From: an uncultured Myxococcales bacterium
GTDB lineage: Bacteria > Myxococcota_A > UBA9042 > DTJE01
Assembly: GCA_903936705.1 (NCBI GenBank)
Contig: CAIZWN010000045.1
Span: 1 to 64,000, forward strand
Direction of reading: 5' to 3'
Length of the DNA stretch: 64,000 nt
Made by a program: the position numbers and the translations under genes. The notes under the pieces are model-generated. The model saw only the letters and a program-made list of their open reading frames with translations, made no database searches and was not told the DNA's origin. Below, one piece after another: positions 9,843 through 36,210 of this stretch; within the stretch, counting starts at the first letter, position 1; the number at the start of each line of letters is the position of its first letter.

Positions 9843-10286
9843 TCAGGCCCGGAAGCGGTTCCAGGTCAGCCAGTAGAATTTGAATGATTCCATCAGCCTT
9901 TTGAATTTGTCGAAATCGACAGGTTTGACCAGATAGGACCCGGCGCCTTGCTCGTAGACTTTCAGGATGTCCGCATTGGCGTTGGACGTCGACAGCACGA
10001 CTGTCGGAATGTGGCGCAGACCAGGGTCCTGCTTGATTCGCGAAAGCACTTCGAGCCCGTCCACCCGGGGCAGACGCAGATCCAGGAGGATCATGTGCGG
10101 CTGCGGATATGCAGTCTGGTCCGTGAAGATGCCCTGGTGGAAAAGGTAGTCCAGAGCAGCCTGGCCGTCCTCGAGGTGGACCATCCGGTTTTCAACCGGG
10201 AAATCCGTCAGGTTGCGCCGGACGATTTCGGCGTGTGCCGGATCGTCTTCCACCAGCAGGATGTTGATGGGCGTTCCAGTCGGCAT
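9843..10286 (-). CDS. Stand-alone receiver domain protein, Rcp1-like
   Basis: A 147-residue single-domain response regulator without an output domain. The acidic pair is ED-D at 13-15, phosphoacceptor Asp69 lies in MILLDLRLPRVDG, then Thr/Ser in VVLSTSN and Lys in YLVKPVDF. The insert DGQAALDYLFHQG is characteristic of the Rcp1 family, which serves as phosphoacceptor for phytochrome-like receiver kinases. The start is ATG preceded by AAGGAGAC at 7 bp. It faces the receiver-kinase gene tail to tail, separated by 15 bp, so it probably acts as a diffusible phosphate shuttle or sink for that kinase. Confidence 0.92.
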   Translation of the reverse strand: MPTGTPINILLVEDDPAHAEIVRRNLTDFPVENRMVHLEDGQAALDYLFHQGIFTDQTAYPQPHMILLDLRLPRVDGLEVLSRIKQDPGLRHIPTVVLSTSNANADILKVYEQGAGSYLVKPVDFDKFKRLMESFKFYWLTWNRFRA

Positions 10287-10495
10287 TGTCCAAGTCTCCT
10301 TCCCACAGCAGGCTTCCACACGGTTGACACCGAGTTTCGCCTGGATTCTGAACTGTGCTAGCCACTCATTGAAGCAAACTATAATTCAGCCTGTTGCTTG
10401 AACACAAGCTTCAGTGGACCCGTAAGGCTTGCCGTCCGGCCCTCATTTTCCTATCCTCGCCGCATCTGAAGCGGCATTGACAGCGAGGTACGTTC

Positions 10496-12487
10496 ATGAA
10501 GATTCTGCTGATCAACCCTGGCAGCAGCGAGGACATCCTGACTCGTGTAATGCGCGAGATTCCCTATCTGGATTCGCCGGCATTTTTTGCGCCACACGCG
10601 CTTGCGGCTGTCGCGGCAGTGACTCCCGAGGGGCATGACGTCCGCATTCACGACGAGAACCTGCGTGGTCCGGTTGATGGGTTGCTGAAGTCCGAACCTT
10701 TCGATGTCATAGGGATTACGCTGACGACCAATCAGTTGCGGCGCACGCTGGCCATCGTTGAATTGTGCAAGCAGCATGGTGTTTCGGGGCGGATAGTGGT
10801 GGGTGGCATCGGCGCCGGAACCATGATGGCGCGTCTGCACGAGAAGGTTGGAACGCTGTTCTGGGGCGAGGTCGAGGACACCTGGCCGCGTTTTGTTCGC
10901 GACATGGCGGCCGGCTGTCCGAAAGATGTCTACCAGCAGGTTGCGAAGCCCGATATGGCGAACACGCCGGTTCCAAGGTGGGACCTGATAGGCGGTGACA
11001 TCCGGCGGTATTGTGCGGTCTCGGTCCAGACGGCTCGCGGTTGCCCTTTCGACTGCGCGTTCTGCGACGTGATCTATACCTACGGTCGCAAGGTACGCAT
11101 GAAGCCGGTCGAGCGGGTGCTGGACGAGGTGCGCCAACTGGAGCGGCTGGGCGCCAAGATGGTGATGTTTGCGGACGACAACTTCGCGGCCGATCGCGCT
11201 TATGTGAAGGACCTGTTGCGCAAACTGGGGCCGTTGAACAACTCGTTCTCGCTGCCTTTGGGGTTCCTGACGCAGCTTGACATCACGATTGCCGAGGACG
11301 ACGAGTTGCTGGAACTGCTGGCCGACTCGAATTTCGTCGAGGTGCAGATAGGCATCGAATCGACCAGCGCCGCGTCCCTGAAGGACATGAACAAGCACCA
11401 GAACCTGAAGGGAGACATCGTCCAGGCCGTGAAGAAGATCCAGTCGTACGGCATCGTCGTAATGGCTCATATGATAATCGGGACCGACAGCGACGATGCG
11501 ACGGCGTTTGAACGGACTGCGGCTTTCCTGCGTGACGCGAACATCACGCACCACCAGTGTCACCCGTTGATAGCGCCCCCCGGCACGAAGATGTGGTACG
11601 ACCTGAAGCGGCAGGGGCGTCTGGTTGCCTTCACGGATGACATGCGGGATCGACTGGATATTACGACCAACATATTGCCTGCACAGATGACGCGCGTGGA
11701 ACTCATGGAGGGCCTGGCCGACTACTGGGATCGGGTGCACGACCCGGCTGATTACACGCAGCGCGCCCTGGCTTTCCTGGCCGGGATCAAGCGTCGGCCC
11801 AAGGTCAAGGAGGCGATGCTGGTCAGCCTGTGGCGGAACCGTTCCATGATGACCGGTACCTTCGCCTACTACACGCGCAAGGTTCCACCTCAGCAACGCA
11901 AGGCCTTCTTCGATGTGGTCAAGGCGACGCAGAAGGTGTCGCCTTCGCTGATGCCGCGGATGATGTTCGTGCACACCGGATACTGGATGGACTGCCTGCG
12001 GGCGCGTCATGCCAGCGCCATCGCGCGGGACCAGGCCGCGCTTGAAAAGTCGCAGCCACAGCGGATACAGGCGCTGTCCAAACAAACGCTGATATCGGTG
12101 GCTCTCAGAGACCGGATGCCGGAGATCGCACGGGCTGCATACGCGAGGATCAGGCCGCAGGTGGCCAGCCGCGAGGAACTGTTCGCCAGGACGCTTGAGG
12201 CGATCATCGACTATCACGACCGATTCGGGGCAACGCTCGAGACCTTCGATGAGGTCCATGCAGACCACCTCTCGATGGCCTGCGATCGAGTGCTTGCGAG
12301 GGCAGCAGGAACGGCGGAAGTCGGGGGTGGAAACGCTTCCCTGGATTTGCAGGCGCAGGACGGGAATTTCGGGTCCCTGGCAGCTGGACCACCTCCGGGA
12401 TTTGCACGGGAGATTCTTGACGCGTTGGACCGGGCTGTGAATGTCGCACACGGGGGTTGGGAGGACATGGAATCGGTCCCCGGCTAG
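10496..12487 (+). CDS. B12-binding-domain radical SAM protein
   Basis: A 663-residue enzyme with an N-terminal cobalamin-binding-type Rossmann domain (1-150), a radical SAM core whose 4Fe-4S cysteines are 183, 187 and 190 (GCPFDCAFC), and a long C-terminal region (about 420-600) like the extension in the hopanoid methylase (HpnP)/DUF4070 group. Such proteins methylate or rearrange unactivated carbons, often of lipids. No DxHxxG cobalamin ligand motif is visible, which is common in this class. The gene converges with a polyprenyl diphosphate synthase, compatible with an isoprenoid substrate, but that is inference. The substrate cannot be assigned from sequence alone. Confidence 0.9.
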   Translation: MKILLINPGSSEDILTRVMREIPYLDSPAFFAPHALAAVAAVTPEGHDVRIHDENLRGPVDGLLKSEPFDVIGITLTTNQLRRTLAIVELCKQHGVSGRIVVGGIGAGTMMARLHEKVGTLFWGEVEDTWPRFVRDMAAGCPKDVYQQVAKPDMANTPVPRWDLIGGDIRRYCAVSVQTARGCPFDCAFCDVIYTYGRKVRMKPVERVLDEVRQLERLGAKMVMFADDNFAADRAYVKDLLRKLGPLNNSFSLPLGFLTQLDITIAEDDELLELLADSNFVEVQIGIESTSAASLKDMNKHQNLKGDIVQAVKKIQSYGIVVMAHMIIGTDSDDATAFERTAAFLRDANITHHQCHPLIAPPGTKMWYDLKRQGRLVAFTDDMRDRLDITTNILPAQMTRVELMEGLADYWDRVHDPADYTQRALAFLAGIKRRPKVKEAMLVSLWRNRSMMTGTFAYYTRKVPPQQRKAFFDVVKATQKVSPSLMPRMMFVHTGYWMDCLRARHASAIARDQAALEKSQPQRIQALSKQTLISVALRDRMPEIARAAYARIRPQVASREELFARTLEAIIDYHDRFGATLETFDEVHADHLSMACDRVLARAAGTAEVGGGNASLDLQAQDGNFGSLAAGPPPGFAREILDALDRAVNVAHGGWEDMESVPG

Positions 12488-23423: not shown

Positions 23424-24470
23424 GTGCTTGACGCGGCCGACGACATTCTTGTCAATGTGTCCGGCGAGGTGGAACCCTGCCGCGTGTATGTTGGCCCTGA
23501 TGTATCGGCGCCGATTTCTGAAAGGGCCCTGGTGGTGGTTGATGCCAGGGTGGCACGGCAGCACCCTGATCGCGTACCGGCAGGGCCGTGCCTTGAGATT
23601 GCCGGTGGCGAGGGCGCCAAGACACTGGCCTCGGTGGAAGTCTTGTGGCGCTTTTTTGCGGACCACGAAGCCGACCGGCGCACGATGGTCGTCGGTGTGG
23701 GCGGTGGTACGGTGACGGATCTGGTGGGCTTTGCGGCATCCACGTGGCTGCGGGGGATGCCGTTCGGATTTGTGGCGACGACGTTGCTGGCCCAGGTGGA
23801 CGCGGCCCTGGGGGGCAAGAACGGCATCAACTTCCTGGGTTTCAAGAATCAGGTCGGACTGGTACGGCAGCCATCATTTGTGACCTGCGACCCGGCATTC
23901 CTGCTGTCGTTGTCCGCGCGCGACTACGTGGCGGGTCTTGCCGAGGTGGTGAAGTACGCGTTGATTGGGAGTCCGGGGCTGCTGGAGCTGTTGGAGGACA
24001 GTGTGGATGCCCTGCGCGACCGGGACGGCGGCGTGCTGGCGAGGGTGGTTCGGGCCAGCGTTGCGGCGAAGGTTGCAGTTGTGCAGGCGGATCCTTACGA
24101 ACGTGGTTACCGACGTGTCCTGAACCTGGGACACACGGTGGGGCATGCCTACGAGGCGGTGCTGGGGGTGAATCACGGCGAGGCGGTTGCTGCCGGCCTG
24201 ATTGACGCCTGCGAACTGTCGGTGCGGCGAGGCCTGCTGGATCCTGCGGTGACGGTGCGTTTGCGGCGACTGCTGGAGGCGCTGGGGCTGCCTGGCCGGC
24301 TGGATGCGCCGTCATCGGCCCTGTCGGCAGCCCTGCGTCGGGACAAGAAGCGCGAGGTTGGACAGGTATTCTTCGTGTTTCTGCGGGGTGTGGGCCAGCC
24401 GGTCGTCGAGTCGGTGCCGCTGGACTTTCTGGACGCGTATCTCGATGGGTCTGCTGGCGGGGGCGCGTAA
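23424..24470 (+). CDS. aroB: 3-Dehydroquinate synthase
   Basis: A 348-residue NAD- and metal-dependent cyclase converting DAHP to 3-dehydroquinate. Landmarks are GGGTVTDLVGFAA (NAD loop), FVATTLLAQVDAALGGKNGIN, the metal ligands Glu (GLAEVVKYALI), His (LNLGHTVGHAYE) and His (NHGEAVAAG), and RRDKK. The start is GTG with AAGGAG 6 bp upstream; the longer frame adds 28 unlike residues. TAA and the next ATG share one base (TAATG), so it is translationally coupled to aroDEK. Confidence 0.96.
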   Translation: MLDAADDILVNVSGEVEPCRVYVGPDVSAPISERALVVVDARVARQHPDRVPAGPCLEIAGGEGAKTLASVEVLWRFFADHEADRRTMVVGVGGGTVTDLVGFAASTWLRGMPFGFVATTLLAQVDAALGGKNGINFLGFKNQVGLVRQPSFVTCDPAFLLSLSARDYVAGLAEVVKYALIGSPGLLELLEDSVDALRDRDGGVLARVVRASVAAKVAVVQADPYERGYRRVLNLGHTVGHAYEAVLGVNHGEAVAAGLIDACELSVRRGLLDPAVTVRLRRLLEALGLPGRLDAPSSALSAALRRDKKREVGQVFFVFLRGVGQPVVESVPLDFLDAYLDGSAGGGA

Positions 24471-26566
24471 TGACCGGGCTGCCGCGCATCTGTCTGTCGG
24501 TCACGGCAGCCGAGGCCGAGGTCGGGCTGCCCCAGCTTGGTGCCTCATTCCTGCTGGAGTTGAGACTTGATTCGCACCCTGCGACCACGGCCGATCTGTT
24601 GCGCCTTCTGGCATTAAGCCCCTGGACCCTGGCCACATGTCGCCCTGGTGTGCGCAGCGAAGCCGAGTGTGGCGAGGTGCTGTTGAGGGCGCTGGCTGCC
24701 GGGGCAACGCTGGTGGATCTGGATCGGACCACGTCGGCGGCCGTGCTTCAGGGAGTGGCGGCCCAGTCGCGGCGCCTGGGGCGCAAGCTGGTTGTCTCGC
24801 ACCACGATTTTGATGGGACGCCGTCGGGTGACGTCCTGTGCGACCTGGTTGAGGATTGCTTCTCGAAGGGGGCCGACATCGCCAAGCTGGCGTGCATGGC
24901 CGTCACCCCGGAAGATAATCGGCGAATGATGGCCCTGTACGATGGCGAGGCGCGCCCCCTGGTCGCCTTCTGCATGGGCCAAGTCGGGCGGCCGACCAGG
25001 ATGCAGGCGCTGGGCTTGGGCGCGCCCTTCATGTACGGCTCGGCCGGACCGGGGCGCGAAACGGCTTTGGGGCAGGTCGAGGCAGCCGAGATGGTGCGGA
25101 TTCTGGGCGTCCATGAGGATTTGCCGAACCGGAATCCCCTGCCGGCCATAGTGCATGTTTCCGAAGGGAGACAGCCCTCCATTGCGGCCGAATCTCCTGT
25201 GCGATTCGGGGTGACAGCAAGGCCGATGACCGAGGGAAGTGAGTTTCCTGTCCTGGGGGCTGCCGGAACGTTCGCGGTCGCTGGGGCTCCGATCCTGCAC
25301 AGCCGCAGCCCTGCGATTCACCAGGCGGTTTTTTCCGGCCTTGGCCTGCCCTGGCGGTACACGCGGGTCCGTGCAGCTCGGCCGGACATGCTGAGGCGCG
25401 TGATGCAGGGGGTGCCCCTGTCGGGCGTGAACCTGACCGCGCCCTTGAAGTTGTCGTGCCTGCCTCTGGCTGATACGCTGGAGAAAGACGCCCGTGACAC
25501 CGGCGCGGTGAACACGCTGGTGCTTGGGCCGGGTGGCCGCTGGATCGGAGCCAACACCGACGGCGAGGGTGTGCTGGGGGCGTTGGTTGGAGTGGGTGCG
25601 GTGCTGGCTGGCCGTCCGGCCGTCGTGCTGGGGGCTGGGGGTGCGGCCAGGTCTGCGGCGAGGGCCCTGGTCGGGGCCGGCTGCGCAGTGACGGTCGTGA
25701 ACCGTACTGCCGTCAGGGCGCAGGCTTTGGCCCGGGACCTGGGGTGCGCGTTCGCGCCATGGGGGGGACTGCGCGACGTGCTGAGGTGCGGCCCGGTAGT
25801 CGTGTCGGCGCTGCCGGCGCTGGCCGTGGCGGACGTGCCGGCAGAGTGGCTGGAACCCGGATCGGTTCTCCTGGACGCCGACTATGCGATCGGCGACCTG
25901 GGCCGGCGGGCGGCGGGACGGGGTTGCACGGTAGCGACGGGCCTGGACTGGCTGGCGTGGCAGGCCATGGGTGTGGCGCGCCGATTCACTGGTCGCGACA
26001 TTGGCATCCAGACGGTTCGCGATGCCTTGGCGGCGTCGTCTGCAATGCCGCCCCAACGAATCGCGCTGGTCGGTTTCATGGGTGCGGGGAAATCTGTGGT
26101 GGCTGCCCGGGTGGCGGCGTCCCTGGGCTGGGATGTCGTGGAAACCGACGAGCTGCTGGAGACCCGCTTTGGCCGGCCCGTCGCCCGGATTTTTGCCGAC
26201 GAGGGCGAGGCGGCCTTTCGCATGGCGGAATCCGAGGTGCTGCGGGACCTGGCGTCGCGTCAACGGGTAGTCGTGTCCTGCGGCGGTGGCCTGCCTGCCC
26301 ACGGCGATAATTCAGCGGTGCTGCGGGACCTCTTTGCTGGCTTCTGGCTTCACGTGTCGCTGGAAACTGCAATGGCTCGTGCGGGGGACGACCCGGCCCG
26401 GCCGCTGCTGCACGGCGCCCCGCGTGAACGTCTGGCAGGGTTGCTGGAATCCAGGACGGACGCGTATGTTGCATCGTCGCGGGTCATAGTGGACGCGGAA
26501 GAAGGTAGCGCCGACACGGTGGCGGAGGGGATATTCGATGAAGTGCGTCGTGCCCTCGCGGGTTGA
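24470..26566 (+). CDS. aroDEK: Trifunctional AroD-AroE-AroK fusion
   Basis: A 698-residue protein with three successive shikimate enzymes. Residues 1-215 are type I 3-dehydroquinate dehydratase (catalytic His in SHHDF at 110-114, Schiff-base Lys139 in ADIAKLA, ending MYGSAGPGRETALGQ). Residues about 255-520 are shikimate dehydrogenase (SRSPAIHQ, GVNLTAPLK with the catalytic Lys, ANTDGEG with the Asp, VLGAGGAARSA, VVNRT). Residues 530-698 are shikimate kinase (P-loop GFMGAGKS at 535-542, ETDELLE, SCGGG, RPLL). D-E fusions occur in plants and some bacteria; adding AroK is unusual. One-base overlap with aroB and 29 bp overlap with aroA indicate coupled synthesis. All catalytic residues appear intact. 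Confidence 0.95.
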   Translation: MTGLPRICLSVTAAEAEVGLPQLGASFLLELRLDSHPATTADLLRLLALSPWTLATCRPGVRSEAECGEVLLRALAAGATLVDLDRTTSAAVLQGVAAQSRRLGRKLVVSHHDFDGTPSGDVLCDLVEDCFSKGADIAKLACMAVTPEDNRRMMALYDGEARPLVAFCMGQVGRPTRMQALGLGAPFMYGSAGPGRETALGQVEAAEMVRILGVHEDLPNRNPLPAIVHVSEGRQPSIAAESPVRFGVTARPMTEGSEFPVLGAAGTFAVAGAPILHSRSPAIHQAVFSGLGLPWRYTRVRAARPDMLRRVMQGVPLSGVNLTAPLKLSCLPLADTLEKDARDTGAVNTLVLGPGGRWIGANTDGEGVLGALVGVGAVLAGRPAVVLGAGGAARSAARALVGAGCAVTVVNRTAVRAQALARDLGCAFAPWGGLRDVLRCGPVVVSALPALAVADVPAEWLEPGSVLLDADYAIGDLGRRAAGRGCTVATGLDWLAWQAMGVARRFTGRDIGIQTVRDALAASSAMPPQRIALVGFMGAGKSVVAARVAASLGWDVVETDELLETRFGRPVARIFADEGEAAFRMAESEVLRDLASRQRVVVSCGGGLPAHGDNSAVLRDLFAGFWLHVSLETAMARAGDDPARPLLHGAPRERLAGLLESRTDAYVASSRVIVDAEEGSADTVAEGIFDEVRRALAG

Positions 26567-28811: not shown

Positions 28812-28910
28812 CCAATCCCCTTTTTTTGCTGATTGAACCGGTATTTCATCGCTTGTTGTGGTCTGTCTCGGGGGGTAGGATCCAGCCTCAAAGCAAGGGG
28901 GGGGACCACT

Positions 28911-29735
28911 ATGGCCCGGCCGACTTTCAACGGCAAGAACGTCTATATCTTCGGTGGGTCGTCGGGGATCGGCCTCGAAACCGCGAAGCTGCTGGCCCAG
29001 CGAGGGTCGAATTTGATCCTGTTCGCGCGTAATCGTGACCGCCTGGAACGCGCGGTCGAGGAGGTTTCCGGCCAGCGCCTGGCCAGAAGCCAGACATTCA
29101 CCAGCCGTGTTCTTGACGTGTCCGATCGCGACGCGGTTGACGCCGTGGTCAAGGAAGCCGTTACCGGGTTCGGCGTACCGCAGATCGTGGTCAACGCCGC
29201 CGGCCGCGCCATTCCCAGGCACTTTGAGGAGATTACCCAGCAGCAGTTCGACGAGACGATGAAAATCAATCTTTACGGCGTCTGGAACACCGTGTCGGCC
29301 GTGCTTCCGTTCATGAAGGAGCGCGGCGGGACCATTGTCAACACGTCGTCAGTGGGCGGGTTCGTGGGCGTCTTCGGATACGCCGACTACGCGGCATCGA
29401 AATTCGCCGTGATCGGGCTGTCCGAGGTGTTGCGCGCCGAATTGAAAAAATACGGAATCAACGTCGCCGTGCTGTGCCCGCCCGACACGGACACTCCCGG
29501 TTTCGAGGTCGAGAACCTTACCAAGCCTGCAGAAACCATGATGATTTCGGAAGGCGCCGGACTGATGCTGCCGGTGGAAGTGGCGCGCGCCCTGCTGAGC
29601 GGGATCGAGTGCGGCGACCCGGTCATTGTTCCTGGCTTCGAGGGCAGGCTGACCTGGTTCATGAAGCGGCACGTTCCAGCGCTGGTGGACTTCGTCATGG
29701 AACGAGGCATTCGCAAGGCACAGCGCAAGGCGTAG
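28911..29735 (+). CDS. Short-chain dehydrogenase, 3-ketodihydrosphingosine reductase-like
   Basis: A 274-residue classical SDR. The cofactor loop is GGSSGIG, followed by NAAG, a catalytic Ser in NTSSVGG, and YADYAASK with Tyr and Lys. The segment CPPDTDTPGFEVEN..KPAET closely matches the PPDTDTPG motif of eukaryotic KDSR/TSC10 enzymes, which reduce 3-ketosphinganine. A C-terminal hydrophobic/basic tail (about 235-274) may contact membrane. The start is ATG 28911. Eleven bp separate it from the extended SDR that follows, so they form one unit. Sphingoid specificity is inference from one motif; a different 3-keto lipid is possible. No serine palmitoyltransferase gene is in the window. Confidence 0.85.
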   Translation: MARPTFNGKNVYIFGGSSGIGLETAKLLAQRGSNLILFARNRDRLERAVEEVSGQRLARSQTFTSRVLDVSDRDAVDAVVKEAVTGFGVPQIVVNAAGRAIPRHFEEITQQQFDETMKINLYGVWNTVSAVLPFMKERGGTIVNTSSVGGFVGVFGYADYAASKFAVIGLSEVLRAELKKYGINVAVLCPPDTDTPGFEVENLTKPAETMMISEGAGLMLPVEVARALLSGIECGDPVIVPGFEGRLTWFMKRHVPALVDFVMERGIRKAQRKA

Positions 29736-29746
29736 GAGGTTTCCAG

Positions 29747-30739
29747 ATGAAGGGTCGGAAGAAATGCCTGGTGACCGGGGCGACCGGATTCCTTGGAACC
29801 AACCTGGTTCACGCCCTGTTACGGGACGGTTGGGAGGTGCGAGCCTTCGGGCTTGAGGGGTCGGAGACGCGCTATATCCGCGAACTGCCGATCGAGATCG
29901 TCACCGGCGATGTCACCCGCGAGTCAGATGTCGATCGGGCCGTGCAGGGGGTCGAAGTGGTCTTCCACCTGGCTGGCGACACATCGTGGTGGCGGCGAAA
30001 TTTCGAACGCCAGCGGCGGATAAACGTGGATGGCGTTGTGAACGTGGCCAACGCGTGCAGGTCGCACGGCGTCAGGCGGTTGGTGCACACATCGACCGTC
30101 GATGCGCTGGGGTACAATCCCGGCGGCCTCGCCGACGAGAAGTGGCTTGACTACAACTATGGCGGTACCGGGTACAATTACGCGGATACCAAGCGTGAAG
30201 GCGAGCGGCTGGTCCGCGAGTTCAACAAGGACGGCCTGGAGGTCGTCGTCGTCTACCCGGGCAGCATGATCGGCCCGTACGATTTCACTTTGCAATACGG
30301 TCGGCTGTTTTTTGACTTGCGGGACGGCAAGGTTCCTGGCTGTCCCCCGGGTGGCGTCAGTTTCGGACACGTGGCGGCGGTTGCGCGGGCCCACATCAGC
30401 GCAGCGACGTCGGGGCGGCCAGGCGAAGGCTATGTTTGTGCCGGCGTGAATGTCACCTACAAGGAATTGTTCCAGTCGATTGCCGGTTGCTTTGGCCGAC
30501 CCGCGCCGAAACTGGTCTTCCCGCGCCCGGTCTTCGTCGCCTACGGATATGCGATGCAGGCGCTGTCCGCCTTGACGGGCCAGGCGCCCGAGGTCGATCC
30601 CGGCATGGCTCGCTATATGTCGGTGAACGCGTACTACGATTCCAGCAAGGCCGTTTCCGAACTGGGTTACGAGGTCGTCGGTCTGAATTCAATGATTGGT
30701 GATGCCTACGAATGGTACCGTAGAAACGGCTTTTTCTAG
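29747..30739 (+). CDS. Extended SDR (NAD-dependent epimerase/dehydratase, reductase-like)
   Basis: A 330-residue extended short-chain dehydrogenase. The NAD(P) loop is TGATGFLGTNL; catalytic YNYADTK provides Tyr and Lys, and TSTVDAL supplies the Ser/Thr. The overall layout resembles dihydroflavonol-4-reductase/3beta-hydroxysteroid-type enzymes, a group that also contains bacterial ceramide reductase (CerR). The start is ATG with AGGAGG 7 bp upstream. It is cotranscribed with the KDSR-like gene, so both may act on the same keto lipid. The substrate is not determinable from sequence. Confidence 0.85.
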   Translation: MKGRKKCLVTGATGFLGTNLVHALLRDGWEVRAFGLEGSETRYIRELPIEIVTGDVTRESDVDRAVQGVEVVFHLAGDTSWWRRNFERQRRINVDGVVNVANACRSHGVRRLVHTSTVDALGYNPGGLADEKWLDYNYGGTGYNYADTKREGERLVREFNKDGLEVVVVYPGSMIGPYDFTLQYGRLFFDLRDGKVPGCPPGGVSFGHVAAVARAHISAATSGRPGEGYVCAGVNVTYKELFQSIAGCFGRPAPKLVFPRPVFVAYGYAMQALSALTGQAPEVDPGMARYMSVNAYYDSSKAVSELGYEVVGLNSMIGDAYEWYRRNGFF

Positions 30740-30905: not shown

Positions 30906-32423
30906 GTGCCGCAAGGCTATCTGAAACGTATCCTGAAGGCGCGCGTCCACGATGTCGCCATCGAATCACCTCTCGAACTGGCTCCGCGTCTGTCGCGCCG
31001 GCTGGGCGCCCAGGTGCTGCTGAAGCGCGAGGACTTGCAGCCGGTGTTCTCGTTCAAGCTGCGAGGGGCGGCCAACCGTATTGCCAGGATTCCGGCCGAG
31101 GACGTCGGGCGTGGGGTCATCTGCGCGTCGGCCGGCAATCATGCCCAGGGTGTTGCCTTGGCTGCCAAGCGGCGTGGCTTGCGGGCCGTAATCGTCATGC
31201 CGGTGACCACCCCTTCCATCAAGGTCGCAGCCGTGCGGGATCTGGGTGGCGAGGTCGTGCTGTGCGGGGACGACTATGACGCGGCCTCGCTGAAGGCACG
31301 CGAACTGGCCGATCGCGACGGGATGGTATTCGTCCACCCTTTCGACGACCCGGAGGTCATCGCCGGGCAGGGGACCATTGCCCTGGAATTGTTGCGCCAG
31401 CGTCCCGAGGGGTTTCACGCGGTATTCGTTCCGATCGGCGGCGGCGGCCTGATCGCAGGCGTTGGCACCTGTCTGAAGGCGTTGCACCCGGAGATTCGAA
31501 TCATCGGTGTTGAACCCGAGGACGCTCCCACGATGCACGCCGCGCTTGCCGCAGGGGCGCCGGTGACGCTGCTGCGGGTCGGGCTGTTTGCCGATGGCGT
31601 AGCCGTGCGTCGTGTGGGGGACGAGACCTTCCGCCTGGCCAGGGACTGCGTGGACGAGATAGTGCTGGTGTCCAACGACGAGATCTGTGCCGCTGTACAG
31701 GACATCTTCGAGGACACGCGGTCGATTGCCGAGCCTGCCGGTGCGCTGGCAGTGGCCGGCCTGAAGCGCTGGGCCGCATCGAACCCGGTTGCCGGCCTGA
31801 CGGTCGTCACTCTGGTCAGCGGCGCCAATATGAACTTCGATCGACTGCGCCACGTTGCCGAGCGGGCCGACTTGGGCGCCGATCGCGAGGCTTTGCTGGC
31901 GGTCGAGATCCCTGAACGGCCCGGGTCCTTTTTGGCCTTCTGTGCTGTCATCGGGTCCCACTTCGTTACCGAGTTCAACTACCGCTATGGCGACCCGGCC
32001 AACGCGCGTGTCTTCGTGGGTCTGGCCCTGTCAGGAGGCCGGGACGAGAAGGCGAAAGTAGTCGAGGCGATCCGTGCTGCCGACCTTCAGGTAGTCGACA
32101 TGAGCGGCGACGAGATGGCCAAGTTGCACGTGCGCTACATGGTTGGCGGTCGTGTGGCAGGCCTTCGGCACGAACGCTTGTTCCGCTTCGAGTTCCCCGA
32201 ACGGCCGGGCGCGTTGCTGGGATTCCTTACGTCGGTCGGGTCCACCTGGAACATATCGCTGTTCCACTACCGGAACCATGGCGCCGACTATGGCCGTGTG
32301 CTGGTGGGGATTCAGGTTGCCCCCGACGATGATGCTGCATTTCGGACCCATCTCGAGGCGCTGAACTTTTCGTGGGCCGAGGAGACGGACAACCCCGCCT
32401 ACCGGCTGTTTCTGGCGCCCTGA
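30906..32423 (+). CDS. ilvA: Biosynthetic threonine dehydratase
   Basis: A 505-residue PLP enzyme deaminating threonine to 2-oxobutyrate, the first step to isoleucine. The PLP lysine is Lys51 in SFKLRGA; SAGNHAQGVA and GGGGLIAGV bind cofactor. The C-terminus holds two ACT-like regulatory domains (about 325-410 and 420-500; ERPGSFLAFC, ERPGALLGFL), as in the isoleucine-inhibited biosynthetic form rather than the short catabolic form. It starts at GTG 30906. 2-Oxobutyrate can also feed propionyl-CoA, which the prpBCD cycle in this window would consume. Confidence 0.95.
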   Translation: MPQGYLKRILKARVHDVAIESPLELAPRLSRRLGAQVLLKREDLQPVFSFKLRGAANRIARIPAEDVGRGVICASAGNHAQGVALAAKRRGLRAVIVMPVTTPSIKVAAVRDLGGEVVLCGDDYDAASLKARELADRDGMVFVHPFDDPEVIAGQGTIALELLRQRPEGFHAVFVPIGGGGLIAGVGTCLKALHPEIRIIGVEPEDAPTMHAALAAGAPVTLLRVGLFADGVAVRRVGDETFRLARDCVDEIVLVSNDEICAAVQDIFEDTRSIAEPAGALAVAGLKRWAASNPVAGLTVVTLVSGANMNFDRLRHVAERADLGADREALLAVEIPERPGSFLAFCAVIGSHFVTEFNYRYGDPANARVFVGLALSGGRDEKAKVVEAIRAADLQVVDMSGDEMAKLHVRYMVGGRVAGLRHERLFRFEFPERPGALLGFLTSVGSTWNISLFHYRNHGADYGRVLVGIQVAPDDDAAFRTHLEALNFSWAEETDNPAYRLFLAP

Positions 32424-32564
32424 AAACTGGAACTGTTCCTCGAGTCGAGATCGAACCATGTGTCTGGTGAGCAGTGAAACATTCGCTGTGCCTGATGGCG
32501 ATGTTTGACTCGGTTCGGACAGGTAGCTAGGATGCCTTTAGGCCTGTAGCAATGGGGCTGGGGT

Positions 32565-34976
32565 TTGGGAGCAGCGGCGTTGCGCCTGGGTCGGATCGTG
32601 TTGTCTGGCCGCGATGTGCAGGCGGATGGCCTAGCCCACGGTGAGCCTACCCTGGCCATCGAGTTCTCTGCCGGCGCGGGGCCTATAGGCACTGCCGTTT
32701 CTGGTTTCGTGTCGCAGTACCGACCGGGCGTGCTTTTCCTGGATGTGCCATCCGACGACATGATTGCCACCGTGAGGGCAGTGTCTGGTTGTGGCCTGCC
32801 GCTGGTTCTGGCGCCGCCTGTCGCCGTTGTTGTCGAAGATCTGGACGTCATTCGGTCAATCGTCGATGCAGCAGGTGTCCCGGCCATGGTGGGGCACCGG
32901 TTGCCATTTCAAGCCGGCCTCCTGCGGATCGCCGCGCTTTGCGGCAATGGCTATGGCCAGCGAGTAACGCGGTTTGAACTGCGCCTGCGCGCGGGCCTTG
33001 GTCGCATGCAGGACGCGCTGGACTCGGTGGCCGCCTTCGACCGATTGTTTGGCCATGTGACTGACGCTTTGTCGCTGCTGTCGCACATGGGGATTCCCAC
33101 CGCCGGCCTGAAGATCTCGAACACGATCGACCCGTCGTACTGGGGTGGCATGAGGCTTGGGCTAGACGCTGGTGGCGGCCTCGAAGGCCATGGGCTTCTG
33201 GTTCCCGGTGGGAGCGAATCACTGAAGCTTGTGGCACCCGACATGGAAGTGGATTGGCGCCTGGACGATTCGGGCGAGCATATCGAAGTGCGCGCCGGCC
33301 GACGCGTTTCGCGCACCGACCTGCCTCCGACAGACTTTCCTGGCGGGCTTGTCGAAGCTTTTAGTGATCTTCTGGGGCGTGGGCTGCCGTTGTGGGAAGG
33401 GCTGGATACCCTTTCGTCAGTGCTTCCTAAAGCGATCGAGCTTGTCGATGAGTATCTGCACGAAAATTCTGTTGCTGTACGGGCCTCCAGTCCAGGAATG
33501 GTGCGTCGGGAAGGCACGACTACGGGCGATGCGTTCTGGGATGCTTTCACGCCGACACGCATGGGGCAGGATTGGGGGTTGACCGCCCAGCCATCGGCGG
33601 CCGCCATTTTCCTTAAGCCATTGGAAACGGCCTTTCCGTTGTTGCTGGTCAGGGTGCCGTTGGCCAGCACGCGAGAAATTGATGTTCCATTCCCGCCTCT
33701 GGCGCTGGCGAGACTGGCTGGGATGGCGGCTTGCATCGGCGGACAGACCGTGCAGATCGACCTTGCTTGCGACTTCGAGCCTGGACCAGAGGTTGATCTG
33801 TCGAGGATCGACCTTGATGCGATGTGTGCCAGGCTGTCCGCCGAGTCAGGCGAACGCACCTTCGAATTGGCCGGGTTTTCGATCGAGGACCCAGACGCCT
33901 GGCCGGTGGTCGAGGCGCTTGCCCGTCACGTCAAGGCGAAAGGAATAGCAACCAGTGTCGTCGTCGGCGGGCGTGGGTTGCAAGGGATCGACAGGTCGCG
34001 AGTCGCGCAGTGCCGCGACCTGGATTTCCTGGTGCAAGGGGAAGGCGAGTTGCCTTTGTTGAGGCTGATGCAATTCCTGCGCGGACTGGCGGACGAGGCC
34101 AGTGTGCCGGGCCTGTGGCGCACCAGTTGGCCGCTGGATCGTTCGGCTAATGCCATTCTAGTGGCCGACCTGTCCCTGTTCCCGACGCCGGATTTCGCGG
34201 GGACCGACCTTACTCGATATGCATCCCTGAGCGAAGTCATAGGGACGCCATTCCTGTCCTACCTGTTCATACTGGGATGCCCTCAGCGGTGCGCGTTCTG
34301 TTCCAACACCTCCAGCCAGAAGGCCAGGACCCGTCCCGTGGCAGACGTCGTCAACGATCTGAGGGTGCTGCGCGATCGGCATGGGGTGCGGGATTTCTAT
34401 TTCCTGAACAACATGATCAACACGTCAGTCCCATACATGCGCCAGTTCCTGACGGCTATGGAGTCGGCGGATCTGGGTATTCGCTGGTGTGATTGCGCGC
34501 GACCGGCCGCATTATCTCGTGAAGACGTGGTGCGCCTGGCGCGCGTCGGCTGCGTGGAACTGACCTGGGGGGTCGATGCCGCAACACAGCGTCTGGCCGA
34601 CTTCGCGCACAAGGCCAGCCGGTTGGATAAGACACGCGTCATTCTGCGCGACGCCAGCGAGGCTGGAATCCGCAACATTGTGAATCTGATTGTAGGTCTG
34701 CCCAGCGAGACCGAGGACGACTTCTTGCAGACGATGCAATTCGTCAGCGAGATGGACCAGTACGTCGCGTCCTTCCGGGTGATGAACTACAGCTTCCAGG
34801 AGGGTTCGCCATTTCGCGAGTCGCCCCGCCAGTTCGGTCTCAGGCGCCGCGCCGACCGGTACGACGAGCTGGGTGGCGTTCGCTGGGCCCAGCACGAACA
34901 GTCCATGTTGCGGCGTTCCCGGATGTTGTCTGACCTGGTGTCGCGCCTCAAGCGCGCCAAGGGTGGCGGTGATTGA
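32565..34976 (+). CDS. Gfo/Idh/MocA-like domain fused to B12-binding radical SAM enzyme
   Basis: An 803-residue fusion. Residues 1-320 follow the Gfo/Idh/MocA oxidoreductase pattern (VLFLDVPSDDM, the later VGHRLPF at 109-114, SYWGGM..GLDAGGG, GLPLWEGLDTLS) but lack a GxGxxG NAD loop, and the catalytic EKP triad is APP (83-85), so this part is probably a pseudo-oxidoreductase. Residues about 350-520 form a cobalamin-binding-type domain (PFPPLALARLAGMAA) and 550-760 a radical SAM core with Cys572/576/579 (GCPQRCAFC), GVDAATQ and GLPSETEDDF. The start is TTG, following an in-frame stop at 32547; an ATG at 32552 in another frame encodes GLGFG, raising the possibility of a sequence or real frameshift. 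The role is unknown. Confidence 0.85.
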   Translation: MGAAALRLGRIVLSGRDVQADGLAHGEPTLAIEFSAGAGPIGTAVSGFVSQYRPGVLFLDVPSDDMIATVRAVSGCGLPLVLAPPVAVVVEDLDVIRSIVDAAGVPAMVGHRLPFQAGLLRIAALCGNGYGQRVTRFELRLRAGLGRMQDALDSVAAFDRLFGHVTDALSLLSHMGIPTAGLKISNTIDPSYWGGMRLGLDAGGGLEGHGLLVPGGSESLKLVAPDMEVDWRLDDSGEHIEVRAGRRVSRTDLPPTDFPGGLVEAFSDLLGRGLPLWEGLDTLSSVLPKAIELVDEYLHENSVAVRASSPGMVRREGTTTGDAFWDAFTPTRMGQDWGLTAQPSAAAIFLKPLETAFPLLLVRVPLASTREIDVPFPPLALARLAGMAACIGGQTVQIDLACDFEPGPEVDLSRIDLDAMCARLSAESGERTFELAGFSIEDPDAWPVVEALARHVKAKGIATSVVVGGRGLQGIDRSRVAQCRDLDFLVQGEGELPLLRLMQFLRGLADEASVPGLWRTSWPLDRSANAILVADLSLFPTPDFAGTDLTRYASLSEVIGTPFLSYLFILGCPQRCAFCSNTSSQKARTRPVADVVNDLRVLRDRHGVRDFYFLNNMINTSVPYMRQFLTAMESADLGIRWCDCARPAALSREDVVRLARVGCVELTWGVDAATQRLADFAHKASRLDKTRVILRDASEAGIRNIVNLIVGLPSETEDDFLQTMQFVSEMDQYVASFRVMNYSFQEGSPFRESPRQFGLRRRADRYDELGGVRWAQHEQSMLRRSRMLSDLVSRLKRAKGGGD

Positions 34977-35019
34977 TCGTTGCGGTGTGGTTGCACGGGC
35001 TGCGGGTCGGACACGATTA

Positions 35020-36210
35020 TCACGTTGCGGATTTCGGCGTCTTCCTTGCGCCAGCCTTCTGCGGCGCCGACAGTCCTGCCAGCGCGGGATAGCTGCCCAG
35101 CACCTTCAGGAATCGCGTTTCGTCGCGCAGTTTGTCCAGTGCCTCGCTGGTCCCTGGGGCGGCTGCGTTGCCTTCCACATCGATGTAGAAAAGGTACTCC
35201 CAGGGGGTTCTGGGCAGGGGTCGGCTCTCCAGTTTTGTCAGGTTCAGGTGGTGGGTAGCCAGCAGGTCCAGGCAGCGAGCCAGGGCGCCCTCACGGTGGT
35301 CGGTTGACAGCACCAGGGAAGTCTTGCACGGGGTTCGCAGGTCAACGGTGCGAGGTTCCCGGGCCACCACCACAAAGCGGGTAAAGTTCTCGGGCTGGTT
35401 GGCGATCCCGCGCTTCAGGACGCGCAGTCCAAAATGATCGGCAGCGGCCTCGCTGGCAATCGCCGCCTGCACCACGTCGCCTTCGTCGCGCACCTTCTCG
35501 ACTGCCATCGCGGTGTCCGTATAGCTTTCGACGCGGCAGCCCGTCAGCGTCGCCAGGAAATCGCTGCACTGGGCCAGGGCCTGTGGGTGCGAATACACGC
35601 GCTTCAGGCTGGACAAAGGCACGTCCTCAATCGCCAGAAGACAGTGATCGACCTCCTGGACCGCCTCGCCCACGATCGACACGTTTGCACGCCGCAGCAG
35701 GTCGTAGACTTCGTTGATGCTTCCAGCCGTCGTGTTCTCGATGGGCAGCACTCCGTAGTCGGCCTCGCCGGCCTCGACGGCGTCGGTGACTTCGGGGAAT
35801 GTGTTCAGACCCGAAAACGACACCCGCTGAAGGACCGGCGCAAAGTGCTTCCTGGCCGCCAGATGGCTGTATGCGCCTTCGGTACCCTGGTATGCAACGC
35901 GTACCGCCAACCGTGCGGCCTTCCCGCCGCCGTCCTCGCGCAGCAGCAGTTCACGTTGGATGTCCAGCGCATGGTCGATGATCGGGTGGAAAAGTCGGGT
36001 CAGGTAGCCCGCGTCCAGCCCGTGCTCGCGGCCCAGACGAATCACCGAGGCCAGTACCGCGCCCTCGCGTGCCCGGTCCCGCAGGTCCAGGCCATTTTCT
36101 ATCTTGATGGCCACTATGCGCTTTACCAGTTCCTGCCGTTGTGCCAGTGCCTCGACGATTCGCCCATCCTGGCGACTCACCTGGCGTCGAAGCAATTCCA
36201 GAGCCTTCAT
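35020..36210 (-). CDS. pheA: Chorismate mutase-prephenate dehydratase (P-protein)
   Basis: A 396-residue bifunctional enzyme taking chorismate through prephenate to phenylpyruvate. The N-terminal AroQ chorismate mutase (1-95) has LRRQVSRQDGRIVEALAQR; the prephenate dehydratase (about 105-280) has AYQGTEGAYS, PIENTTAGSI and the catalytic Thr-Arg-Phe in NFTRFVVV; the ACT regulatory domain (about 290-370) has KTSLVLSTDHREGAL and the Phe-binding ESRP, so feedback inhibition by phenylalanine is expected. The ATG overlaps the aminotransferase stop by 4 bp. It is the last gene of the three-gene minus-strand operon and converges with the radical SAM fusion gene. Confidence 0.95.
   Translation of the reverse strand: MKALELLRRQVSRQDGRIVEALAQRQELVKRIVAIKIENGLDLRDRAREGAVLASVIRLGREHGLDAGYLTRLFHPIIDHALDIQRELLLREDGGGKAARLAVRVAYQGTEGAYSHLAARKHFAPVLQRVSFSGLNTFPEVTDAVEAGEADYGVLPIENTTAGSINEVYDLLRRANVSIVGEAVQEVDHCLLAIEDVPLSSLKRVYSHPQALAQCSDFLATLTGCRVESYTDTAMAVEKVRDEGDVVQAAIASEAAADHFGLRVLKRGIANQPENFTRFVVVAREPRTVDLRTPCKTSLVLSTDHREGALARCLDLLATHHLNLTKLESRPLPRTPWEYLFYIDVEGNAAAPGTSEALDKLRDETRFLKVLGSYPALAGLSAPQKAGARKTPKSAT

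Follow-up and report, generated by a model that had tools for sequence, protein, structure and literature searches.

A degenerate Gfo/Idh/MocA domain fused to a cobalamin-type radical SAM enzyme in an uncultured Myxococcales bacterium

Class 1 cobalamin-dependent radical SAM enzymes such as TsrM, TokK and OxsB, and likewise CysS, consist of a cobalamin-type Rossmann domain, a radical SAM core and a C-terminal part. To our knowledge, most B12-binding radical SAM proteins have no known substrate, and we know of no function for the N-terminal domain of OxsB, an enzyme of solved structure. For a domain lying ahead of the cobalamin domain, OxsB itself provides the structural precedent (PMC13331322). 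A gene in the 64,000-nucleotide stretch of DNA analysed here (the window) encodes a protein with the same three parts, which differs from TsrM, TokK, OxsB and CysS in its extra N-terminal domain, a degenerate Gfo/Idh/MocA dehydrogenase as judged from sequence and model. This domain has in common with the Gfo/Idh/MocA oxidoreductases (PF01408) the fold and a residual sequence similarity, but it lacks the GxGxxG loop, the EKP lysine, the catalytic histidine and any Pfam match, and it is fused to a B12-binding radical SAM enzyme. The fusion is real and rare; what it adds is a new architecture within a class of enzymes already known, rather than a new class of system. An earlier note on this DNA knew of no described family with such a domain order; in this line, no NCBIfam model matched the window protein above its own cutoff, and none of the papers in the literature collection searched combined a Gfo/Idh/MocA domain with a B12-binding radical SAM enzyme in one protein.

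Domain layout of the fusion protein

The layout of the protein was confirmed as a degenerate Gfo/Idh/MocA domain, followed by a cobalamin-type Rossmann domain and then by a radical SAM core (Table 1), with all three catalytic features of MocA enzymes lost from the first domain. The likelier start, read by eye, is the in-frame TTG at 32580, which has a GGGAG 8 nt upstream; the protein would then begin with MRLGRIVLSG..., resembling a worn MocA start.

Table 1. Features of the fusion gene and its surroundings (window positions).
Feature	Position	Strand	Details and basis
Fusion gene	32565..34976	+	803 aa from TTG 32565; 798 aa from likelier TTG 32580
Degenerate Gfo/Idh/MocA domain, residues about 6-330	32580..33554	+	hhalign, AF2 model, Foldseek against PDB
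Place of GxGxxG loop, now LSGRDV (lost)	32601..32618	+	Alignment with 25 MocA proteins
Place of catalytic EKP, now APP (lysine lost)	32811..32819	+	Alignments with paralog and MocA proteins
Cobalamin-binding-type Rossmann domain, residues about 357-500	33633..34064	+	Sub-threshold Pfam B12-binding; profile match to TsrM, TokK, CysS
Radical SAM core, residues about 563-735	34251..34769	+	Pfam PF04055, 8.6e-18
CxxxCxxC motif (C572, C576, C579)	34278..34301	+	Invariant in 7 homologs
C-terminal tail, kept in relatives (FGLRRR...YDE.GG..W)	34770..34973	+	Homolog alignments
Segment between ilvA end and pheA 3' end, absent in both congeners; fusion gene its sole content	32424..35048		DNA alignment; gene order

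The N-terminal domain is hidden from standard searches. Residues 1-330 gave no Pfam match with E up to 1 and did not reach the gathering score of PF01408, and a search of the own genome with this model matched three genes, the fusion gene not among them. A profile of the window protein and its paralog (see below), scanned over 379 genomes, returned weak matches (E 1e-5 to 1e-3), mostly to proteins with a MocA motif including EKP. When compared by hhalign with MocA proteins chosen through Pfam, and thus independently of the N-terminal query, the domain aligned with an E of 1.8e-4 and a probability of 48%, a value that 40 column shuffles never approached (at most 3.6%). The alignment with the nearest MocA proteins was stronger (E 5e-11, 97%), this set having itself been picked with the same profile. 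Against PDB sequences, the top match of a three-row profile was a MocA-family dehydrogenase, with a non-significant E of 0.12.

The earlier note would have been contradicted by a different predicted fold. An AF2 model of residues 1-330, which depends on the MocA rows present in its alignment (pLDDT 78.9, pTM 0.80), gave the two-domain Gfo/Idh/MocA fold, composed of a Rossmann and an alpha/beta domain. Foldseek aligned this model over its full length with MocA structures of the PDB (E 2.6e-14 to 2e-11, TM about 0.5-0.66), and the 50 best fold matches were dehydrogenases with a MocA-type fold. A full-length AF2 model from two sequences reached a pLDDT of 35 and was left unused. Alignment with the 25 MocA proteins located the losses, which the paralog also shows: the dinucleotide loop reads VLSGRD in the window protein and RPGRLS in the paralog, EKP is replaced by APP and ASP, respectively, and the segment of the DMGxH histidine has become HVTDAL and EVANAL. 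Profile comparison, predicted fold and motif alignment together confirm, at the level of sequence and model, the reading of residues 1-330 in the earlier note as a Gfo/Idh/MocA domain stripped of its catalytic residues.

The second half of the protein is apparently intact. The Pfam Radical_SAM match spans residues 568-727, and the cysteine motif, already described as intact in the earlier note, was found unbroken. The Pfam B12-binding match at residues 415-499 remained sub-threshold, with 14.5 bits for the window protein and 29.2 bits for its paralog against a cutoff of 32.1. A family profile aligned with TsrM, TokK and CysS over the B12-binding and radical SAM regions, taking in the cobalamin domains of TokK and CysS, and AprD4 matched as well. 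The hallmarks of class 1 are thus present as a CxxxCxxC core and, ahead of it, a Rossmann domain of the cobalamin-binding type recognised by profile match though below the Pfam cutoff, from which we infer that the fusion protein uses cobalamin. NCBIfam matches were to generic B12-binding radical SAM models far below their cutoffs, led by a ladderane-type model (rSAM_ladder_B12, the best match, 4.9e-22), ApyD, ocin_1 and PhpK. The RiPP radical SAM C-methyltransferases ocin_1 (TIGR03975) and ApyD (NF050148) are among the nearest curated families, but the window protein scores far below their cutoffs (74.4 versus 281.85 bits and 76.7 versus 750 bits, respectively) and no precursor gene adjoins it.

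Relatives of the fusion protein

The search for homologous fusions proposed in the earlier note returned two close relatives, more distant Polyangium-type proteins and sister proteins whose dead domain is of another kind. The paralog, on contig C15 of the same genome, has 797 aa, an ATG start and 45% identity across its full length. A third member of about 784 aa (L117, JAJYLH010000094.1) came to light in a Myxococcales MAG when some 85,000 species genomes were scanned, and its N-terminal domain aligned with that of the window protein with a hhalign probability of 95% (E 1.7e-8); L117 and the Polyangium type surfaced with a broader alignment, a narrower first scan having given no match. The cores of these three proteins group into one supported clade (95/94). 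Strong matches to the N-terminal profile, sought in 379 genomes of the phylum and in 52 genomes of the class, were confined to the window's own genome, which indicates that this type is rare.

A draft assembly of 84 contigs and a non-ATG start might raise the suspicion that two genes were joined by mis-assembly or by a frameshift, or that the gene is a pseudogene in decay. Such an artefact is extremely improbable and is refuted by the homologs: since a full-length paralog on a separate contig shows the same layout, as does the third member, the fused sequencing error that the earlier note named as a refutation is ruled out, and both halves of the gene have a coding-type codon pattern. Between the window gene and its paralog, the first two codon positions have changed less than the third in either half, so the dead domain too is held under constraint.

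The Polyangium-type proteins, from Polyangium fumosum and others, have about 820-880 aa. Their N-terminal domain aligned with MocA proteins with an E of 1.8e-4 and a score of 38 (at most 18.6 in 60 shuffles), and gave no alignment (0.4%) with the MocA set chosen through Pfam. They thus seem to carry a MocA remnant too, on weaker support than in the window type. Profile comparison detected no direct homology between the N-termini of the two types, so that a single fusion event is not demonstrated. The sister proteins (L046, L047 and L131, the second from the same genus) have a homologous core with 34-35% identity, but their N-terminal domain aligned with radical SAM/SPASM enzymes of the HxsC type (probability 96%, E 4e-9, with shuffles reaching 1.1% at most), and no CxxxCxxC was seen in it. 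As judged from these alignments, related cores bear dead domains of two different enzyme kinds in the same N-terminal place. Elsewhere in the own genome, nine stretches akin to B12-type radical SAM proteins lie within about 45 kb (contig C76:5747-49566).

Another genome of the phylum encodes a giant protein of 1539 aa (L027 354-4973; similar ORF in L028) in which three radical SAM-like parts are joined to a MocA domain that looks intact. As in the window protein, radical SAM and MocA share one chain, but in the opposite order, with the MocA domain at the C-terminus and its GxG loop and EKP kept; the first part is homologous to neighbours of Polyangium-type genes. The existence of this protein, as well as pocket-type residues conserved between window protein and paralog (VGHRLPF, DEYLH), would fit an N-terminal domain that is not dead but bifunctional, that is, an altered enzyme or sensor of MocA fold using another cofactor and coming into play either ahead of the radical step or following it. 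This appears improbable, as lysine, histidine and dinucleotide loop are all lost in window protein and paralog, and L117 is more eroded still, with most of its first strands gone.

Genomic context of the two copies

From its place between ilvA and pheA, the earlier note had proposed for the gene a role in amino acid or aromatic metabolism, a suggestion that comparison with two congeners (G001 and G002) did not sustain. In both, the DNA alignment stops at 32423 and restarts at 35049/35050, and ilvA, pheA, ilvE, aroG and tyrA are collinear with 78-91% protein identity; ilvA adjoins pheA and only the fusion gene is missing. This adjacency points to an insertion specific to this lineage, in a cluster of aromatic amino-acid genes that is otherwise conserved; on the sequences compared, the gene either was inserted at ilvA-pheA or was lost in both congeners. 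Recent transfer was also judged by base composition and rejected, the GC of the gene (0.61-0.64) being close to that of its surroundings. Searches of plasmid and phage families gave generic radical SAM matches or none, and PADLOC a single weak generic match.

The cluster itself (15620-39594) is an aromatic supercluster with fused trpE-G, fused trpD-trpC, trpB, trpA, a class II DAHP synthase, aroB, a three-domain AroD-AroE-AroK fusion (24470-26566), aroA, aroC, ilvA, pheA, ilvE, a class I DAHP synthase and tyrA, so that both classes of DAHP synthase are present. Between aroC and ilvA lie an SDR and an HpnA/SdmB-like reductase (28833-30739), which in the congeners are not beside ilvA and whose ORFs probably start further downstream than listed.

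Around the paralog we find a DUF6395 gene and a radical SAM gene distantly like HxsC4, with plsB adjoining. In the congeners, a DedA-like gene follows about 5 kb beyond plsB and the fusion paralog is absent there; for the stretch with paralog, DUF6395 and radical SAM gene, no long DNA match was found in the genus. Since both copies sit in stretches missing from the congeners, little about the role of the window gene can be read from its neighbours. The DUF6395 protein (L029 11596-13401, contig C15) has a PP-loop-like SGGMDS motif; none was found in the 52 other related genomes searched, and its annotated plasmid relative is near galU and a glycosyltransferase gene.

Two readings of the substrate draw on these neighbourhoods. 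The trp/aro/phe/tyr genes and a TsrM-type similarity would suggest a TsrM-like enzyme whose substrate is an amino acid or an aromatic metabolite belonging to the cluster around it, which we hold to be quite unlikely: both congeners keep the ilvA-to-tyrA part without the fusion gene, paralog and L117 are located elsewhere, and the similarity to TsrM is no greater than that to other B12-binding radical SAM families. Unlikely too, if somewhat less so, is the same enzyme class with its dead domain acting on a lipid or polyketide-like substrate of a hopanoid-, ladderane- or sterol-type pathway. The leading NCBIfam model and a further match to HpnJ point in this direction, along with the reductase and SDR upstream of ilvA and the plsB next to the paralog. 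Those matches, on the other hand, reflect a generic similarity among B12-binding radical SAM enzymes, the congeners have plsB without the fusion gene, and ilvA stands between the insertion and the HpnA-like gene.

A proposed peptide-type substrate and docking role

A tentative reading, to which we give somewhat under an even chance, is that of a class-1-like cobalamin-dependent radical SAM enzyme with a RiPP-like peptide as substrate and the dead dehydrogenase as its recognition or assembly module. The radical SAM half would cleave SAM reductively and, together with cobalamin, modify an unactivated position, most likely by C-methylation. Placed ahead of the cobalamin domain, the MocA domain would have neither its usual NAD(P) binding nor hydride transfer; it would keep its fold and act in substrate recognition or assembly. 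As the enzyme's substrate we would most expect a ribosomal peptide, from a RiPP-like pathway in which HxsC-type radical SAM enzymes also take part. Methylation, peptide substrate and docking role are all parts that we infer.

A peptide-modifying pathway is favoured by the genes beside Polyangium-type relatives, by the HxsC-like dead domain that the sister proteins carry, and by the distantly HxsC-like radical SAM gene near the paralog. In a Sandaracinaceae MAG (L123), a Polyangium-type gene stands beside HxsC4 and HxsA4 (9929-11256), the latter an HGS-repeat peptide and both above their NCBIfam cutoffs. In other genomes (L124 and L127), the Polyangium-type gene is beside a dual radical SAM protein, one half of which is HxsC-like. 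The RiPP maturases ApyD and ocin_1, leading NCBIfam matches although below their cutoffs, are in agreement. Against it, the HxsA4/HxsC4 neighbourhood was seen once and in a different clade, the NCBIfam model that the window protein matches best belongs to a lipid pathway, and B12-binding is under its Pfam cutoff. Moreover, no precursor peptide was found in the vicinity of window gene, paralog or L117, and no HxsA4-type repeat peptide in the window or around the paralog. The genome's only HGS-repeat peptide stretch, HxsA4-like and with 29 overlapping matches, is at contig C51:75158-75444. HGS-repeat peptides were rejected as a specific partner, being present in all 11 genomes searched and, here, on another contig. 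A peptide-type substrate thus stands as the single likeliest reading, short of an even chance, and not as a result.

A broader proposal, more doubtful than the peptide reading itself, is that in Myxococcota one B12-binding radical SAM core has received different dead enzymes in one and the same N-terminal place, by which pathway partners that were once catalytic may have become substrate-docking modules, a kind of plug-in pseudo-enzymes for radical SAM peptide maturases. The dead domains on these radical enzyme cores are probably docking modules for the substrate. Gfo/Idh/MocA and HxsC-like folds would thereby join the candidate pseudo-enzyme modules, and such recognisable dead enzymes in the N-terminal place known from OxsB offer a testable handle on substrate recognition and pathway membership.
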